From a virus, in the IMG/VR virus record IMGVR_UViG_3300027969_000124, positions 1 through 56,324 of that record: 56,324 nucleotides of DNA; one strand, given 5' to 3'. A program made the position numbers and the translations under genes. This document shows, in pieces, positions 9,130 through 19,010 of the stretch. Within the stretch, counting starts at the first letter, position 1; every line of letters begins with the position of its first letter. The notes under the pieces are model-generated. The model saw nothing but the letters and a program-made list of their open reading frames with translations. It made no database searches and was not told the origin of the DNA.

Positions 9130-10815
9130 ATGAATCTGGATCACGTCGCCTTCAACGACCACGCACGTATAGCCTGTCCCGAATGCTCGGACGATAGGAA
9201 GAAATCCAACTCTAAAGACATGACGCTGACCCGCAAGCCTGACGGTGCGGTCATCTATCACTGTCACCACTGCCTCACAAGCGGTCTTCTACAACCTAAA
9301 AACGAAACACACAGGGAGAGTAAATTGTCCGCAGTACCAAACATTGCCATAGTGAACAACAAACTGCAAGACCATCACTATGCATGGCTGTCTAAACGGG
9401 GTATTTCCCAACAGACAGCAGATAAGATGAAACTTTTCGCTGCCGATAAGTTTTTTAGCAAACTGGGCAAGACCTCCGAAGCAATCGGATTCCCTTATTA
9501 CCGAAGCGGTGCGTTGGTGGCAGTCAAGTACAGATCATTCCCTGAGAAAGATTTCACCCAAGACTCAGGCGGGGCGCACGACTTCTTTGGCATTGATCTA
9601 GTAGAGAAGGGTAAACCCCTAGTCATTGTTGAGGGTGAGATAGATGCGCTGACGGCTATGGAATGCGGGATAGAGAATGTAGTGTCAGTGCCAAGCGGTG
9701 CGCCTATCAAGGTGGCAGATGGCAAAGTGCTACCCAGCGAGGATAAGAAGTTTTCCTACGTGTGGAACGCACGAGACATTATTGAGTCAGCCCCGTATAT
9801 CGTCCTAGCCACAGACCAAGACACAGCGGGTCAGGCATTGGCAGAAGAACTAGCCAGAAGGATCGGCAAAGATAAATGTCGCATCGCCAAGTTCAGCAAG
9901 AAAGATTTAAACGAAGTCTTACTCGATGACCCAGCACGGCATAGCGCAGTCAAAGACATCATCGAAGGCGCAACCCCGTACCCCATCGCAGGTCTCTCGG
10001 ATGCGGGCATTTACTTTGACCGTTTAAACGACCTATACCAGAAAGGAACGGGGAAAGGATTTTCAACGGGGTACGCCTCGGTTGATAGCGTTTACACGGT
10101 TGCTCCTAGCCAACTCACTGTTGTTACTGGGTATCCCTCATCAGGAAAATCCAACTTCATCGATCAGGTCATGGTCAATCTCGCACGTGGAGCAGACTGG
10201 AAGTTCGCAGTGTGTTCGTTTGAGAATCAGCCTGAGATCCACATCTCCCGCCTGATGGAGATTTACACCAAGAAAAGATTCTTTGATGGCAAGGATCGCA
10301 TGACGGAGGAAGAAAAAGAACATGCGTTTAAATGGGTACAGGATCATTTCTTGTTCATCGATACCAACGGAGAAGAACCGTCAACACTGGAGTCCATCTT
10401 GGATCGGGCGAGGGTAGCGGTTAAACGCATGGGGGTGCGGGGTATGGTCATCGATCCATACAACTACATAGAGTTAGACAAGACCAACTCGACAGAGACT
10501 GAGGCGATAAGTTCCATGCTGACCAAGGTGCAGAAGTTCGTCAAAGCCCATGACGTGCATTGTTGGTTCATCGCTCACCCATCCAAGATCAACCGCTCAG
10601 GGGTGGAGCAACCTCGACCCGACGGTATGTCAATCAGTGGATCGATGGCATGGTGGGCTAAGACCGACTGTGGTATCACCGTCCACAGGGCAGAGCAATG
10701 CGTTGAAATCGCAGTGTGGAAGTGTAGATATCGGTGGGTGGGTACGCAAGGTGAAACGACCCTTCTCTATAACAAGACAGCGGGTACGTACTCAGAGAAT
10801 CTAGATCAGTTCTAG
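9130..10815 (+). CDS. Bifunctional primase-helicase (T7 gp4-like)
   Basis: A 561-residue replication protein. The N-terminal zinc-binding domain has C16xxC19 and C45xxC48. A TOPRIM-like domain has VIVEGEIDAL (E168/E170) and ATDQDTAGQ (D229/D231). The C-terminal SF4 (DnaB-type) helicase has Walker A GYPSSGKS (334-341), a GMVIDPYNYI Walker B and a WFIAHPSK motif. It makes primers and unwinds DNA at the fork. No phage DNA polymerase is visible here, so it probably works with the host replicase. Last gene of the rightward replication operon, converging with the second leftward operon. Confidence 0.93.
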   Translation: MNLDHVAFNDHARIACPECSDDRKKSNSKDMTLTRKPDGAVIYHCHHCLTSGLLQPKNETHRESKLSAVPNIAIVNNKLQDHHYAWLSKRGISQQTADKMKLFAADKFFSKLGKTSEAIGFPYYRSGALVAVKYRSFPEKDFTQDSGGAHDFFGIDLVEKGKPLVIVEGEIDALTAMECGIENVVSVPSGAPIKVADGKVLPSEDKKFSYVWNARDIIESAPYIVLATDQDTAGQALAEELARRIGKDKCRIAKFSKKDLNEVLLDDPARHSAVKDIIEGATPYPIAGLSDAGIYFDRLNDLYQKGTGKGFSTGYASVDSVYTVAPSQLTVVTGYPSSGKSNFIDQVMVNLARGADWKFAVCSFENQPEIHISRLMEIYTKKRFFDGKDRMTEEEKEHAFKWVQDHFLFIDTNGEEPSTLESILDRARVAVKRMGVRGMVIDPYNYIELDKTNSTETEAISSMLTKVQKFVKAHDVHCWFIAHPSKINRSGVEQPRPDGMSISGSMAWWAKTDCGITVHRAEQCVEIAVWKCRYRWVGTQGETTLLYNKTAGTYSENLDQF

Positions 10816-14210: not shown

Positions 14211-15920
14211 TTATGCGACCAATTTAATTTTGTTGAATGCGATAGCACCAAGGTCTTCTACCTTGCGAACGATCACCGAATTTTTGTAGATGTCTGTCAC
14301 GTCAGACATGATGCCGACACCTATCGTTGTGATGCCCAGTGACTCACCCGCTTTGACCTGATCACGCACGGCAGAGGGGTTGCCACGTCCATCGGTGATC
14401 ACAAAGCAGATCTTGCGTTGTGCATCTGTACCGTGCAACATCTCATGGGCATAACGCACTGCAAAAAAGTCATTAGTTCCACCGCCTGAGATAACGTTGG
14501 GCATGACAGCCAATGCCTTCTTGGCGGGTAAGGCGAACGGTTTCAGCACTGCTGTCTCGCATCCAAATGTCAGCACTGCCGTCTGCACTTGTGCAGAGTT
14601 AAGCGCATCGACCAGTGATGCACAGGCATTGAGACCCGCTTGGATGGGGGATAACTTGCGCTTGAAGTTGAACATCGAACCCGATACATCCAACACGATC
14701 ACGACAGCGGAGTCGATACCATCGACATCTAATCTACGTTTAAACAGGCGATCATTGCCCGATGGAATTGTGTGCAAGGTACGCACGTTGACCGACCCCG
14801 ACTTGCGTCCGACTTGGTGATCGCTTGTGCCTGTGTTATCGAACAAGCGACGAACCTCGAACCGTAACTTGGCAGAGACGTTCACGTCAGCGTTCAGTTC
14901 ATAGTGACGTTGATTGCGGTAGTGCGACTCAGTGAGACCGCTCGACTTGGAGTACGTACCGTCAGCACCCGCACCATCGGGTGCTTGGTTAGTTGGCTCG
15001 ACCTCACGTGCGTAGGGGAGATTACCCTCGTTGTCAGTTGGGTTTTGAGCGTCACCCACTGGAGCGTCCGAACCATCGGATGCACCCTCACCCTCACCCT
15101 CGTTCTGATCGGGGCTTGTAGACCCCTTCTCGCCCTTCCCTGACCCCTCGCCCTGACCCTCGCAAGGTTGACCTTCTGTAGGTTGACCCTCGCCCTTGCC
15201 CTTGCCCTGACCTTTGCCCTGACCGTCACCTTGTGGCTTAGGGTTGGGGTTGGGTTTAATGCTCTTCAATTGATCGGCAACCCACAGGGCGATAGCCAAG
15301 GTGTCTTCACTGGTTTTAGCGGTAGCAAGGCGGTCACGTGCCACGTCAAATATTGGCTTGAGACCGTTAGCCAATGGCACTTTGCGAGTCGCATGTTTAC
15401 GTGCATAGACAGCCAACACAAAGGGGTACTGCTCAGGGCTAGACCAATCGACAGGTTGTGTGAAAGATTCAGCGACCATACCATCGACCAGTGAGGAGAG
15501 GAGACCCTCAGCATTGCCGACTAACTTCTCGTCGATACAACGGTGTTCGATCATTGCGTCTTCCAGTGCGTTGTGCAGTGAGCGGACATAGTGAACCTCA
15601 GTGCGTCCGACTTGGAAGTCGGTGTACTTACGGTGCAACAACTCATGCAAGATGAACCCAACATAACGCTCGAATACTGGGCGGGTGATCACTGCATTGT
15701 CGGCAACGTTATGCAAGACGATGTCACCGTGATTGTTGATCTTGGCAGTGGGTGTCCATGCGTCCCATGCCACGGTCACTGGGGCAAGGGCTAACTCCTT
15801 GCAGATTTTGTGGGTAGCCTGTTCGATGGCTTTGCGAAACTCGACCCCGTTTAAACGGCTACGTGAAAACACTACGCATTTGTCACCACCAACGATGACG
15901 TGTTTTGTTTGTTGTTGCAT
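14211..15920 (-). CDS. VWA-domain metallopeptidase-like protein (CobT/DUF2201-like)
   Basis: A 569-residue protein. The N-terminal domain carries HELLH (92-96) and ALEDAMIE (118-125), matching the zinc site of VWA-associated peptidase-like domains. Residues ~222-330 are a low-complexity linker rich in G, Q, E and K. The C-terminal VWA domain has the MIDAS motif DVSGSM (411-416) and GGGTNDFF. Encoded next to a MoxR-type AAA+ ATPase, the usual partner of such proteins. The pair resembles CobS/CobT in layout, but no other cobalamin gene is present, so a chaperone or remodelling role is likelier. AAGGAG precedes the ATG. Confidence 0.85.
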   Translation of the reverse strand: MQQQTKHVIVGGDKCVVFSRSRLNGVEFRKAIEQATHKICKELALAPVTVAWDAWTPTAKINNHGDIVLHNVADNAVITRPVFERYVGFILHELLHRKYTDFQVGRTEVHYVRSLHNALEDAMIEHRCIDEKLVGNAEGLLSSLVDGMVAESFTQPVDWSSPEQYPFVLAVYARKHATRKVPLANGLKPIFDVARDRLATAKTSEDTLAIALWVADQLKSIKPNPNPKPQGDGQGKGQGKGKGEGQPTEGQPCEGQGEGSGKGEKGSTSPDQNEGEGEGASDGSDAPVGDAQNPTDNEGNLPYAREVEPTNQAPDGAGADGTYSKSSGLTESHYRNQRHYELNADVNVSAKLRFEVRRLFDNTGTSDHQVGRKSGSVNVRTLHTIPSGNDRLFKRRLDVDGIDSAVVIVLDVSGSMFNFKRKLSPIQAGLNACASLVDALNSAQVQTAVLTFGCETAVLKPFALPAKKALAVMPNVISGGGTNDFFAVRYAHEMLHGTDAQRKICFVITDGRGNPSAVRDQVKAGESLGITTIGVGIMSDVTDIYKNSVIVRKVEDLGAIAFNKIKLVA

Positions 15921-15932
15921 GTTGTCTACTCC

Positions 15933-17417
15933 TTAGATGTTGTTAGAAATAAATGTCTCGTCGATGCATGCCACACGGATCGCTTCCAGTGCGGTAGCCG
16001 ACTCTGAGGGTTGGCGGTTGGCGATAGTCGCATCCCACGCATCCTTCACAGGCAAGACCTTCAATGCTTTGATGAATGCCACGACAGAGCGGATGCTAGG
16101 TGCGTCCACGATATCGGCACTCTGTACCTTCTGACGTGCCACACGCACCGACTTGAGTACGTGCTTGGCTAGATCCTTGGTGCATCCAGTGTGACGCACG
16201 ACAGCGTCGATCTCAGCGTCGATGGGTAGGTAATCCATGCGGATCACCTGTGCAAAGCGGTCAATGAATGCAGAGTTCATCGCCTTTGTACCCGCATAGC
16301 GTCCGCTCTCATCGCCCGAACCAAGGGTGTTATCAGCACCGAACACTAGCACCCCAGTGGCACGCTTATGCACCTGACCGCCATAAGACACCGCACTATT
16401 GGGTTCGAGGAAACCGTTCAAGATCGCCAAGATGGCGGGGTCTAGGTTGCTTGGCTCGTCCAAGAGGATGACAGTGGATGGATGGGCATAACCCATTAAG
16501 AAATCTTTCTTCTCAAAGTAAGTACCTTTGACAGGGTCATAGCCTGTCGCACCGATGAAGTCTTCCACTTGCGTTTGCTTGGTAAAGTTTATGCGTTTAA
16601 ACGCACGACCTGTGTAGCCCGCAAAGTTGCGAGCGGACTCGCTCTTGCCTGTACCCTTGTCACCGCCCATCCATACTGGGGACTCTGTCACGTCAGCCAA
16701 GAGGAAGTGACGCAAGACCTTCTCAGTCCACACAAAGTAGGGATCGATGGCGGGGGCAGAGGGGTCATTCCAAATGCGAACCATTACAGGGTTGCCCTTG
16801 GGGTCTAGCACCTCGACACCGAACACGTCCAGTGCGGTCTTGGTATCGGTCACGTAGACACTCGCAATGTCAGCGACAGTGGTTTGTACACCCGCTGTCT
16901 CGACTGCCGTCTTGAACGGTGCGAATGCGTCAGCGACTACCTTGTTGACGGCACGTGTGATGGAGTCTTCATCGATGTTGACTGCCCCGATGGCGGTCTC
17001 TGCCTTGTCGAGTCGGTTTGCAACACCGCTTGCGAACTTGGCGGTTGAAACGATGGAGTCGCTGAGACCCTCTATTTTTTTGAGCAGATCAACTTGAACA
17101 GCGTTAGCCCTTTGCAGTGCGTCGAGGGCGGTTGTCTCTGCACGTGATGCGACAGCGGACGTTGCGTCCAGTTGTGCGCCTAGAGCGGGGTCAGTGCCTT
17201 GCGGAGCGGATTGGTAGGGGGTTGACTTGCGGATCGCTTCGATACCAATGTCGGGTGAATGACTGTAGTTGTCGATCACGTAAAGGGTGAGGGTATCGAT
17301 CTCTTCGATCGGGTTGAGGTTCGTGCCATGACCTAGCACGTGCAATGCACCCTTGCGGACAGCAGAGGGGATGCGTGAAATTTCGGTGCGAATTACGGTG
17401 CGTGTGGATGCGGACAT
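15933..17417 (-). CDS. MoxR/CobS-type AAA+ ATPase
   Basis: A 494-residue protein started at ATG 17417, where AGGAG is 8 bases upstream; the ATG at 17423 is too close to that site. Walker A GGDKGTGKS (251-259), Walker B VILLDEPSN (~316-324), a pore-loop-like region and a sensor FGADN are visible. The N-terminal ~190 residues include a coiled-coil (RAETTALDALQRAN...LLKKIEGL) not typical of MoxR. It likely drives the VWA protein encoded 12 bases downstream, and the SprT-like protease gene is just upstream. Confidence 0.87.
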   Translation of the reverse strand: MSASTRTVIRTEISRIPSAVRKGALHVLGHGTNLNPIEEIDTLTLYVIDNYSHSPDIGIEAIRKSTPYQSAPQGTDPALGAQLDATSAVASRAETTALDALQRANAVQVDLLKKIEGLSDSIVSTAKFASGVANRLDKAETAIGAVNIDEDSITRAVNKVVADAFAPFKTAVETAGVQTTVADIASVYVTDTKTALDVFGVEVLDPKGNPVMVRIWNDPSAPAIDPYFVWTEKVLRHFLLADVTESPVWMGGDKGTGKSESARNFAGYTGRAFKRINFTKQTQVEDFIGATGYDPVKGTYFEKKDFLMGYAHPSTVILLDEPSNLDPAILAILNGFLEPNSAVSYGGQVHKRATGVLVFGADNTLGSGDESGRYAGTKAMNSAFIDRFAQVIRMDYLPIDAEIDAVVRHTGCTKDLAKHVLKSVRVARQKVQSADIVDAPSIRSVVAFIKALKVLPVKDAWDATIANRQPSESATALEAIRVACIDETFISNNI

Positions 17418-17434
17418 TGTCATTACTCCTATGT

Positions 17435-18031
17435 TTAAACGGTGAAGAGATCGCCATCGACTGGGCATGTAGGCAGTCCATAGGATGCCCATTTTGAGGT
17501 CAGTCGCACGGTGTAGCCACATGATGGGCAGTAGGCTTTCAGCATGCGAGTGCCTTGTTTTTTCTTACGCTGTCCCACTGTCAGTGAGCCATGTGGGTAT
17601 GCACCCAGTGATTCGATAATTGCACCGTAGGTCTGAGCAAACCCACTAGCACCACGTGTAGCACCCCACGGTTCTCTACGTGTGGGGTCTATTGGTTCGA
17701 GCATCATTGCCGATGCGATTTTTTGGAAGTTGATACCGTGGTTAAAACCCCCCTTGGCGGTATGGCACAACTCATGCACCACTACCTCGAATACCTCGCT
17801 TGGACTAGCCAACTTGGGGTGTATGAAGATCTCATGGTGACCGTCCGCAGATGCGGTATCGATCCAACACTCGCCAATGGCATTGGAGCGGAGTGCGTTA
17901 GAGGGAAGACCGCACGTCAGGCGAACCCTCTCAGGTAATTTAGAACCCGCAACCTCAAAGGCGGGACGTAACTCTTGGAATGCTTGGGTGAGCCATTGCT
18001 CACGTGTGGCATGGATGGTAGGCAGTGTCAT
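17435..18031 (-). CDS. SprT-like zinc metallopeptidase
   Basis: A 198-residue protein with HELCH (86-90), a third histidine in FNHG (H98) and a C-terminal zinc ribbon (CPSCGY, TCPVDG). This is the SprT/Spartan arrangement, implicated elsewhere in cleaving DNA-protein crosslinks. Its stop codon is inside a GTTTAAAC palindrome 16 bases before the ATPase start, so the three genes form one transcript. It is preceded by a duplicated two-hairpin leader (18051-18089). Confidence 0.85.
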   Translation of the reverse strand: MTLPTIHATREQWLTQAFQELRPAFEVAGSKLPERVRLTCGLPSNALRSNAIGECWIDTASADGHHEIFIHPKLASPSEVFEVVVHELCHTAKGGFNHGINFQKIASAMMLEPIDPTRREPWGATRGASGFAQTYGAIIESLGAYPHGSLTVGQRKKKQGTRMLKAYCPSCGYTVRLTSKWASYGLPTCPVDGDLFTV

Positions 18032-18050
18032 AGGAATGATCTCCGATTAA

Positions 18051-18089
18051 GTAGCAAAATTACTACTCCAATGCCCCCGCAAGGGGCAT
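18051..18089 (-). promoter_or_regulatory. Two-hairpin leader A upstream of the SprT-like gene
   Basis: On the minus strand ATGCCCC/GGGGCAT (18071-18077 with 18083-18089) is followed by GTAG/CTAC around an AT-rich loop (18051-18066), then a GGAG ribosome site. Nearly the same module precedes the next gene upstream (18294-18333), with paired base changes that keep both stems. Confidence 0.6.
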
Positions 18090-18096
18090 CAGGGTA

Positions 18097-18276
18097 TTAA
18101 CTTAAGTCTTCTGGCTCTGCGTATGCAACGTTTTCCACTTCAAAATACCCGCTCTCAAAGTCCGCACAATGTGCCACTTCATCTAGCGCAATTTGTTCCG
18201 CATCATCAGCGTTACCCGCTTCAATTTCATAAGTGTGCCGTCCTACGTATGTCATAGTTACTTTGAATGTTGCCAT
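18097..18276 (-). CDS. Hypothetical small protein (59 aa)
   Basis: Started at ATG 18276 because GGAG lies 6-7 bases upstream; the longer frame runs through the leader hairpins. Begins MATFKVTMTYVGRHTYEIEA and contains NADDAEQIALDEVAHCADFE: a beta strand plus EEA-type helix, similar in layout to the 58-residue protein at 11265-11441. Function unknown. Confidence 0.75.
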   Translation of the reverse strand: MATFKVTMTYVGRHTYEIEAGNADDAEQIALDEVAHCADFESGYFEVENVAYAEPEDLS

Positions 18277-18293
18277 GTTGATACTCCAATTAC

Positions 18294-18333
18294 GTGGCGA
18301 AATTACCACTGCAAAGCCCCCACAAAGGGGCTT
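18294..18333 (-). promoter_or_regulatory. Two-hairpin leader B, paralogue of leader A
   Basis: AAGCCCC/GGGGCTT (18314-18320 with 18327-18333) and GTGG/CCAC (18294-18309) in the same order and spacing as leader A, again just upstream of a GGAG site. Relative to A, stem pairs change T-A to A-T and A-T to G-C, preserving pairing. Confidence 0.6.
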
Positions 18334-18346
18334 CACGGTATTAACT

Positions 18347-18589
18347 TCAAACGTCATATTCGTGGTGAACGATAGCGACCACTTGGCTATCGGTTTTTTG
18401 CATGACCGTCACACGCTTGCAGAAGTAACCTCCCGCTTCTTGGTAGGTCTCATGGTAGACCTGTGGCAAGAGCCACTCATGTGCCTGATCTTCTGTCAGG
18501 TTGTCATCACTACATGACAGCAAGAGGTATTGGTCTGAACCATCTATACCGTGCTGAATGCGACCTATGTTGGTGACTTTGATTTCCAT
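18347..18589 (-). CDS. Hypothetical protein, first gene of the second leftward operon
   Basis: An 80-residue protein with MEIKVTNIGRIQHG, CSDDNLTEDQAHEWLLPQ and FCKRVTVMQKTDSQVVAIVH; probably mixed alpha/beta. AAGGA precedes the ATG, and a small TTGGC/GCCAA hairpin (18612-18627) lies upstream, similar in loop sequence to leader B. Not recognised. Confidence 0.75.
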   Translation of the reverse strand: MEIKVTNIGRIQHGIDGSDQYLLLSCSDDNLTEDQAHEWLLPQVYHETYQEAGGYFCKRVTVMQKTDSQVVAIVHHEYDV

Positions 18590-18902: not shown

Positions 18903-19010
18903 TTATCCACGCAATCCACAGAATGCCTGTGGACAACTTTACTTATCCACAATTCTTTGACTGCCTGTGGATAACTGTTATAGTGCTGTTTATGCGAACA
19001 GTGTGGACAA
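18903..19010. other. DnaA-box cluster, candidate replication origin
   Basis: Five sites match TTATNCACA at 8 or 9 of 9 positions: 18903-18911, 18928-18936 (reverse), 18943-18951 (perfect), 18966-18974 (reverse, perfect) and 19002-19010 (reverse). A weaker sixth lies at 18912-18920. They sit in an AT-rich intergenic region between divergent operons. This is the arrangement of a DnaA-dependent origin, or of DnaA-mediated control of the late promoter. Confidence 0.6.
18957..18984 (+). promoter_or_regulatory. Candidate promoter of the late (terminase) operon
   Basis: TTGACT (18957-18962), a 16-base spacer and TATAGT (18979-18984): 5/6 and 5/6 to the sigma70 consensus. A perfect DnaA box (18966-18974) fills the spacer, so DnaA binding would compete with RNA polymerase. 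The start would be near 18991, 74 bases before terS. Confidence 0.5.

Follow-up and report, generated by a model that had tools for sequence, protein, structure and literature searches.

MoxR/VWA machines are understood chiefly as metal-insertion or assembly chaperones. In the NorQ hexamer, a VWA finger of NorD enters the pore, and twisting and stretching of the NorD linker is a proposed effect of ATP turnover (PMC13036017). In group 2.2 jumbo phages, a role in virion assembly was proposed for a MoxR ATPase paired with a metallopeptidase-vWA protein (Iyer et al. 2021, PMC7824862), and a two-gene cobST cluster found in many tailed viruses was proposed to function in vitamin B12 metabolism (Liu et al. 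2021, PMC8651126). SPRTN, a mammalian relative of SprT, resolves DNA-protein crosslinks (PMC5127644). The window analysed here, the whole 56,324-nucleotide stretch (positions 1-56,324) of IMG/VR virus record IMGVR_UViG_3300027969_000124, carries a MoxR/CobS-type AAA+ ATPase gene and a CobT-like zincin-linker-VWA gene directly behind a gene for a SprT-like zinc metalloprotease. We propose, with a probability of about 40%, that the three products would form one ATP-driven remodelling-and-proteolysis machine acting in the early or replication phase, with DNA-bound proteins as the likeliest substrates.

A conserved three-gene module

Every locus fetched from IMG/VR was scanned with purpose-built profiles of the SprT, ATPase, zincin, VWA and DUF7192 families. 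All linkage samples are best matches to the window and hence describe its relatives; because the overlapping scans partly cover the same contigs, the tallies are not mutually independent. SprT lay directly upstream in 79/79 ATPase-anchored contigs having at least 900 bp upstream, and the ATPase lay downstream in all 75 of the closest SprT relatives having at least 600 bp downstream. The fairest test was the terminase-anchored scan, because the terminase lies outside the module. Where 3.3 kb or more of sequence lay upstream of the gene for the large terminase subunit (TerL), SprT was found on the opposite strand in every contig (32 of 32); where 4.9 kb or more did, SprT, ATPase and zincin occurred together at the same locus (24/24 contigs). 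The gene order was SprT, ATPase and third gene, and in all 187 SprT-ATPase pairs the two genes shared a strand. Zincin and VWA, where both were visible (118 loci), were fused in 70 and encoded by separate neighbouring genes in 48. A genome contig search returned a single contig, from a Burkholderiales metagenome-assembled genome, in which SprT is directly ahead of the ATPase; Burkholderiales are tentative first candidates as hosts. The trio was present in 19/19 relatives, in which the surrounding small genes occurred in 0-1 of 19 and one of them in 8. The three genes are thus a real, conserved module, and the suggestion of the first-pass annotation that they might be a distinct phage module is borne out by their strict co-occurrence among the relatives of the window. 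The module, found in every sampled genome of this large group of uncultivated phages, is probably important to its carriers.

In the window, the trio lies in a minus-strand operon that descends from position 18589 and also contains small genes. As first annotated, three complete open reading frames are neighbours on this strand and carry conserved active-site motifs. Each is preceded by a Shine-Dalgarno sequence: GGAG for SprT (ATG 18031), AGGAG for the ATPase (ATG 17417) and AAGGAG for the third gene (ATG 15920). The motifs are not due to chance, as little or no variation was seen in them among the relatives compared (24 for SprT, 31 for the ATPase, 37 for the zincin and 32 for the VWA domain).

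The first gene (17435-18031, minus strand; 198 amino acids) encodes the SprT-like zinc metalloprotease, identified by its motifs, its conservation and a match to PHROG 6361 (E 2.8e-40). The HELCH motif (residues 86-90) lies at 17762-17776, the third histidine, H98, at 17738-17740 and a C-terminal zinc ribbon at about 17465-17530, all on the minus strand. In an alignment of 24 homologues, taken both from phages with the trio and from phages with SprT alone, H86, E87, H90, H98 and F102 are invariant, giving HExxH together with an HGxxF-type histidine ligand. The subclade of the window keeps three of the usual four ribbon cysteines (CPSC...CPVDG), and most relatives have four, with CPC. The match to the Pfam family SprT-like (PF10263; E 1.5e-4, 22.0 bits) is below the gathering cut-off of 25.6, and for this reason we use the name SprT-like rather than SprT; an actinophage protein annotated as SprT-like scores lower still (18.6 bits). 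A PDB sequence search with the SprT profile gave no matches. The ribbon cysteines are absent from the SprT homologues of Bordetella CN1 (L064, 5974-6579), which carries the annotation 'antirestriction protein', and Pseudomonas PSA20 (L067, 5974-6579).

The second gene (15933-17417, minus strand) encodes the ATPase of 494 amino acids. A longer open reading frame of 529 amino acids, extending to 17522, is probably over-extended; the AGGAG at 17426-17430 places the start at ATG 17417, 17 nt past the SprT stop. The protein matches AAA_5 (E 5e-11) and PHROG 249 (E 9e-35), and its Walker A, Walker B, sensor 1, arginine finger and sensor 2 are invariant or nearly so. Its best single-domain PDB match was CobS (1e-33), followed by NorQ. 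The bpMoxR domain scored 19.7 bits against a cut-off of 27 and the module has no beta-propeller, which sets it apart from the MoxR-vWA-beta-propeller ternary conflict systems.

The third gene (14211-15920, minus strand) encodes a protein of 569 amino acids, in which a gluzincin-like domain (15246-15857, minus strand) and a VWA domain (14214-14879, minus strand) are joined by a long low-complexity linker rich in G, Q, E and K. The VWA domain contains a MIDAS motif, DVSGSM (residues 411-416; 14673-14690, minus strand), and matches VWA_2 (E 3e-10) and CobT_C (E 5e-8; 33.4 bits, above the 21-bit cut-off), the latter marking it as CobT-type. Across the 32 VWA relatives, D64, S66, S68 and D163 of the MIDAS pattern DxSxS-T-D are invariant and T135 nearly so. 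The best PDB match was CobT (3e-29), then, among MoxR partners, NorD. Judged from PDB profile matches, the pair seen at first pass as MoxR-type ATPase plus VWA protein combines an ATPase of the MoxR/CobS-NorQ type with a partner of the CobT/NorD type.

The same matches make CobS and CobT the closest solved relatives of the two proteins and, with the published proposal for viral CobST (PMC8651126), raise the possibility of auxiliary metabolism, in which the pair would be a viral cobaltochelatase using host CobN for vitamin B12 and SprT would be unrelated. However, the curated equivalog cut-offs were far off (51 vs 558.6 bits for CobS and 13.7 vs 759 bits for CobT), and this explanation accounts for neither the conserved protease site nor SprT. 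In addition, no CobN-family or ribonucleotide reductase gene was detected in any of 16 phage records in which controls were detected, although host CobN could still serve. Cobalt chelation is made improbable by these two absences, and with them the cobaltochelatase explanation was rejected as the least probable of those considered.

The HELLH of the third protein (residues 92-96; 15633-15647, minus strand) had been taken at first pass for a sign of a metallopeptidase-like part, and conservation and the modelled fold now make that part gluzincin-like by prediction. HExxH and an N-x-x-E-D-x-x-I-E helix, which carries the probable third zinc ligand E120, are invariant in the 37 zincin relatives. 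The AlphaFold2 model of the domain had a mean pLDDT of 95.7, and its nearest solved folds were the minigluzincins selecase, jannalysin and abylysin, plus M1 aminopeptidases, at a middling best Z of 6.9 over 100 residues. Among viral models, it resembled CobT-like proteins with query-normalised TM-scores of approximately 0.6-0.8, and the predicted HHTV-2 protein R4T663 matched the domain. A PDB sequence search with the zincin profile returned no matches. Because of the invariance and the confident, zincin-led fold model, HELLH is a genuine predicted zincin site and no chance motif, with proteolysis itself a prediction. A second HE..H of this protein lies inside the VWA domain and is not kept in the split relatives.

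SprT and the ATPase-VWA pair apart from each other

Beyond the relatives of the window, SprT and the pair also occur separately. For SprT, 163 isolate records matched, mainly of Arthrobacter and Microbacterium phages; in 11 whole isolate genomes with SprT, distributed over these groups, the ATPase profile gave just two 45-residue P-loop matches. Conversely, SprT was absent from 11 phage genomes with ATPase-VWA or ATPase-DUF7192 pairs. The initial expectation that the SprT-like gene would not be found independently of the pair therefore held for the relatives of the window, where linkage is obligate, and failed for the isolates, whose SprT homologues are mostly independent of it. Solo SprT genes tend to lie close to genes for DNA polymerase or single-stranded DNA-binding protein, and SprT-less CobST pairs close to genes for Pol III alpha, ligase or primase.

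Phage CobT-like proteins either keep the zinc-protease motif (HEVGH, HEAGH or HECYH) or lose it (L304, 2463-4709; L302, 3681-5642; L004, 4972-6729; L303 and L305). The proteins of ICP2, CRP-810 and cyanophage S-CRM01 retain HExxH, whereas those of ANB28 and ZY21 have lost it; some of these proteins may therefore be proteases and others not. With the zincin site retained in the first three, the early label 'peptidase' given to the cyanophage protein may be correct.

In more distant loci, a second type of trio was found: SprT and ATPase are followed by DUF7192 (PF23822, PHROG 1909), a family without an assigned function, in 19/20 loci with enough sequence. The DUF7192 genes lie in loci L056, L057, L058, L060, L062 and L070-L097. 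The best matches of a DUF7192 model (mean pLDDT 79) were VWA-type, led by the Rea1/Midasin MIDAS, NorD and MDN1, with Z of at most 7.6, and hhalign of DUF7192 with the CobT-like VWA gave just 20%. Many members have an N-x-S-A-S stretch at the expected MIDAS position. From the model we infer that DUF7192 is a VWA-type partner of the ATPase. DUF7192 with the ATPase, but no SprT, was also seen in phages of Staphylococcus, Mycobacterium, Rhizobium and Tunturiibacter. The DUF7192 gene comes directly after that for a MoxR/CobS-like ATPase in Staphylococcus Kayvirus, Mycobacterium cluster L, Tunturiibacter and uncultivated phages; in a Rhizobium phage it comes a short way after one.

The two trio types each formed a clade in the SprT phylogeny (support 100/99 and 95/79), and a single origin of the link between SprT and the motor was neither favoured nor rejected (AU p 0.53). 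Since the predicted DUF7192 fold of the second group resembles VWA domains, SprT appears to have been paired with a MoxR-VWA-like motor either twice or across a deep split. As SprT and the pairs each occur alone elsewhere, SprT appears to be an add-on that joined such motors on one or two occasions, was retained and is now obligatory in both phage groups. Occurrence of each half alone, together with a co-evolution analysis that gave nothing beyond linkage, would also suit separate action, namely a SprT protease acting at DNA and, sharing its operon, a MoxR/VWA chaperone unrelated to it. This is very unlikely, as linkage is complete in two phage groups whose third partners differ and whose other operon genes turn over.

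A candidate proteolytic machine and its setting

By analogy with its relatives, the ATPase would assemble into a MoxR-type hexamer and use ATP. The VWA domain would dock on this ring as adaptor and substrate receptor, in the manner of the CobT-CobS and NorD-NorQ pairs. Two zinc protease heads, one being the gluzincin-like domain across the flexible linker from the VWA and the other SprT as a protein of its own, would cut a substrate opened by the motor: the ring would act on a substrate held by the VWA domain and the gluzincin-like head, and SprT would cleave the exposed parts. Membership of SprT in the complex is a guess from linkage. That the three proteins work as one machine is nevertheless probable. 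The likeliest substrates would be host or phage proteins tightly bound to DNA. The position of solo SprT and SprT-less CobST near replication genes favours DNA-bound substrates, and a DNA-bound or replication-linked target is a possible, still tentative, part of the proposal.

The surroundings of the module bear on when it may act. In the window, the plus strand carries packaging and structural genes (terminase subunits, portal and major head protein) from about 19 kb onward. Between the module operon and this divergent packaging operon, at 18903-19010, lie DnaA-box-like 9-mers, TTATCCACA and one-mismatch forms, as a putative origin. Exact TTATCCACA occurred 86 times in 61.5 kb of equivalent intervals from 27 genomes (loci L225-L300), against a mean of 0.5 and a maximum of 3 in shuffles and 3 copies in 338 kb of remaining sequence. 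The cluster is likely a host-DnaA-dependent origin or regulatory site. The DUF7192-type trio precedes methyltransferase, exonuclease and DNA polymerase genes. Early, replication-phase action is suggested by the strand, the turnover of small genes, the DnaA-box cluster beside the operon and the place of the DUF7192-type trio ahead of replication genes.

The same setting can also be read differently. In the 13 long records (55.5-63.5 kb, including the window), the ATPase and TerL genes are a few kb apart on opposite strands, and the module is core and adjoins the packaging operon in every one. This is compatible with virion assembly, in which the capsid or tail would be assembled with the MoxR/VWA pair as chaperone and structural proteins would be processed by both protease domains, as was proposed for the jumbo-phage pair (PMC7824862) with reference to the need for MoxR-vWA in archaeal virus tail assembly. 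However, the module is transcribed away from the packaging and structural operon, and the DUF7192-type trio sits in a replication region. The median identity to the window was 42-53% for the trio, against 92% for the major capsid protein and 81% for TerL, which also speaks against an assembly role, yet the small terminase subunit (TerS) is as variable as the trio. Overall, a function in assembly seems somewhat unlikely.

Much faster divergence than that of the major capsid protein and TerL, within an early-type operon whose small genes turn over rapidly, would also be expected of host takeover or counter-defence, in which the module would unfold and degrade particular host proteins of transcription, the nucleoid or defence; host targets have been proposed for jumbo-phage SprT-like proteases (PMC7824862). 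Fast evolution was dropped as decisive proof of a host-facing function, because TerS is equally variable. Moreover, universal presence at a fixed locus is atypical of counter-defence genes, and a scan with a defence-system library gave no convincing family match. We therefore consider this explanation unlikely.

Several points weigh against a single DNA-directed machine as proposed above. The argument for an early operon is based on strand and neighbours, and the one-machine proposal derives wholly from genes, motifs, linkage, order and fold predictions. SprT homologues occur in isolated phages without the motor, and motors without SprT. The NorQD twisting mechanism was proposed for metal insertion without proteolysis (PMC13036017). 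Finally, partial distance correlations given TerL were 0.54 for SprT-ATPase and 0.47 for SprT-VWA, barely above the 0.43 for SprT and its unrelated neighbour TerS, which does not support co-evolution beyond linkage. Co-evolution as proof of a complex, strong at first, was removed for SprT by this TerS linkage control.

Other features of the window were also recorded. A primase/helicase gene is found at 9130-10815 on the plus strand, and genes for an exonuclease and a Sak-like annealing protein at 5-6.5 kb on the minus strand. Two small genes precede SprT in its operon (18097-18589, minus strand) and are present in 1/19 and 0/19 relatives. An intergenic element comprising a G/C-rich hairpin, a second small hairpin and a Shine-Dalgarno sequence occurs in two copies (about 18245-18330 and 18010-18086), directly ahead of the SprT gene and the gene preceding it, and once each in loci L020 and L009. 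Terminator and promoter scans gave signals no higher than in shuffles. For the region 33-1001, all matches were to the C-terminal end of phage proteins of very large size (1636-2118 residues), and the window may begin within a gene for such a protein.

Comparison with described systems

In a literature search on SprT with MoxR in phages, PMC7824862 alone was relevant, and one on DUF7192 found nothing; subscription journals were mostly outside the coverage of both. MoxR/zincin-VWA phage pairs are already published; what provisionally appears to be new is the obligate linkage to SprT, the variant with DUF7192 and the conserved DnaA-box cluster next to the operon. If the proposal is true, a core phage module couples a MoxR/VWA motor to two protease heads, and such an engine can drive proteolysis. 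It would also give a function to phage CobS/CobT genes presently filed under vitamin B12 metabolism and identify DUF7192 as a VWA-type partner. The broadest version, an AAA+ protease class without earlier description that combines a MoxR ring, a VWA adaptor and two zinc metalloprotease heads (SprT and CobT-type gluzincin) and clears proteins from DNA beside a DnaA-box origin in a large phage group, is rather unlikely.

The pair of group 2.2 jumbo phages (PMC7824862) is the same in that a MoxR-type ATPase adjoins a protein with an N-terminal metallopeptidase and a C-terminal vWA. SprT is mentioned only separately there, whereas here it is the obligatory first gene; moreover, the phages here are of approximately 55-64 kb, and zincin and VWA are separate genes in 48/118 loci. 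The viral cobST cluster (PMC8651126; cyanophage cobS/'peptidase') shares the CobS/CobT-like pair and the MIDAS, and a split cobT is known in HHTV-2; unlike the module, the SprT-less pairs of the eleven tested phage genomes have no SprT anywhere in the genome.

NorQ/NorD, CobS/CobT and Rea1/Midasin likewise combine a MoxR or dynein-like ring with a VWA adaptor and include the best structural relatives of the ATPase, VWA and DUF7192. Like NorD, the third protein has a long linker, which here joins the VWA to the N-terminal domain. Those systems insert metal or remodel complexes, whereas intact protease motifs are attached here. The SprT/SPRTN/Wss1 crosslink proteases share HExxH, the HGxxF-type third-ligand motif and the C-terminal zinc ribbon; the window protein is just below the Pfam SprT cut-off and is likened to them by sequence. 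The SprT-like proteases that stand alone in phages of Arthrobacter, Microbacterium and Streptomyces (PHROG 6361) belong to the same family, with about 30-42% identity, but the genomes tested carry no MoxR/VWA genes nearby or elsewhere, whereas in the relatives of the window the protease comes with its motor.

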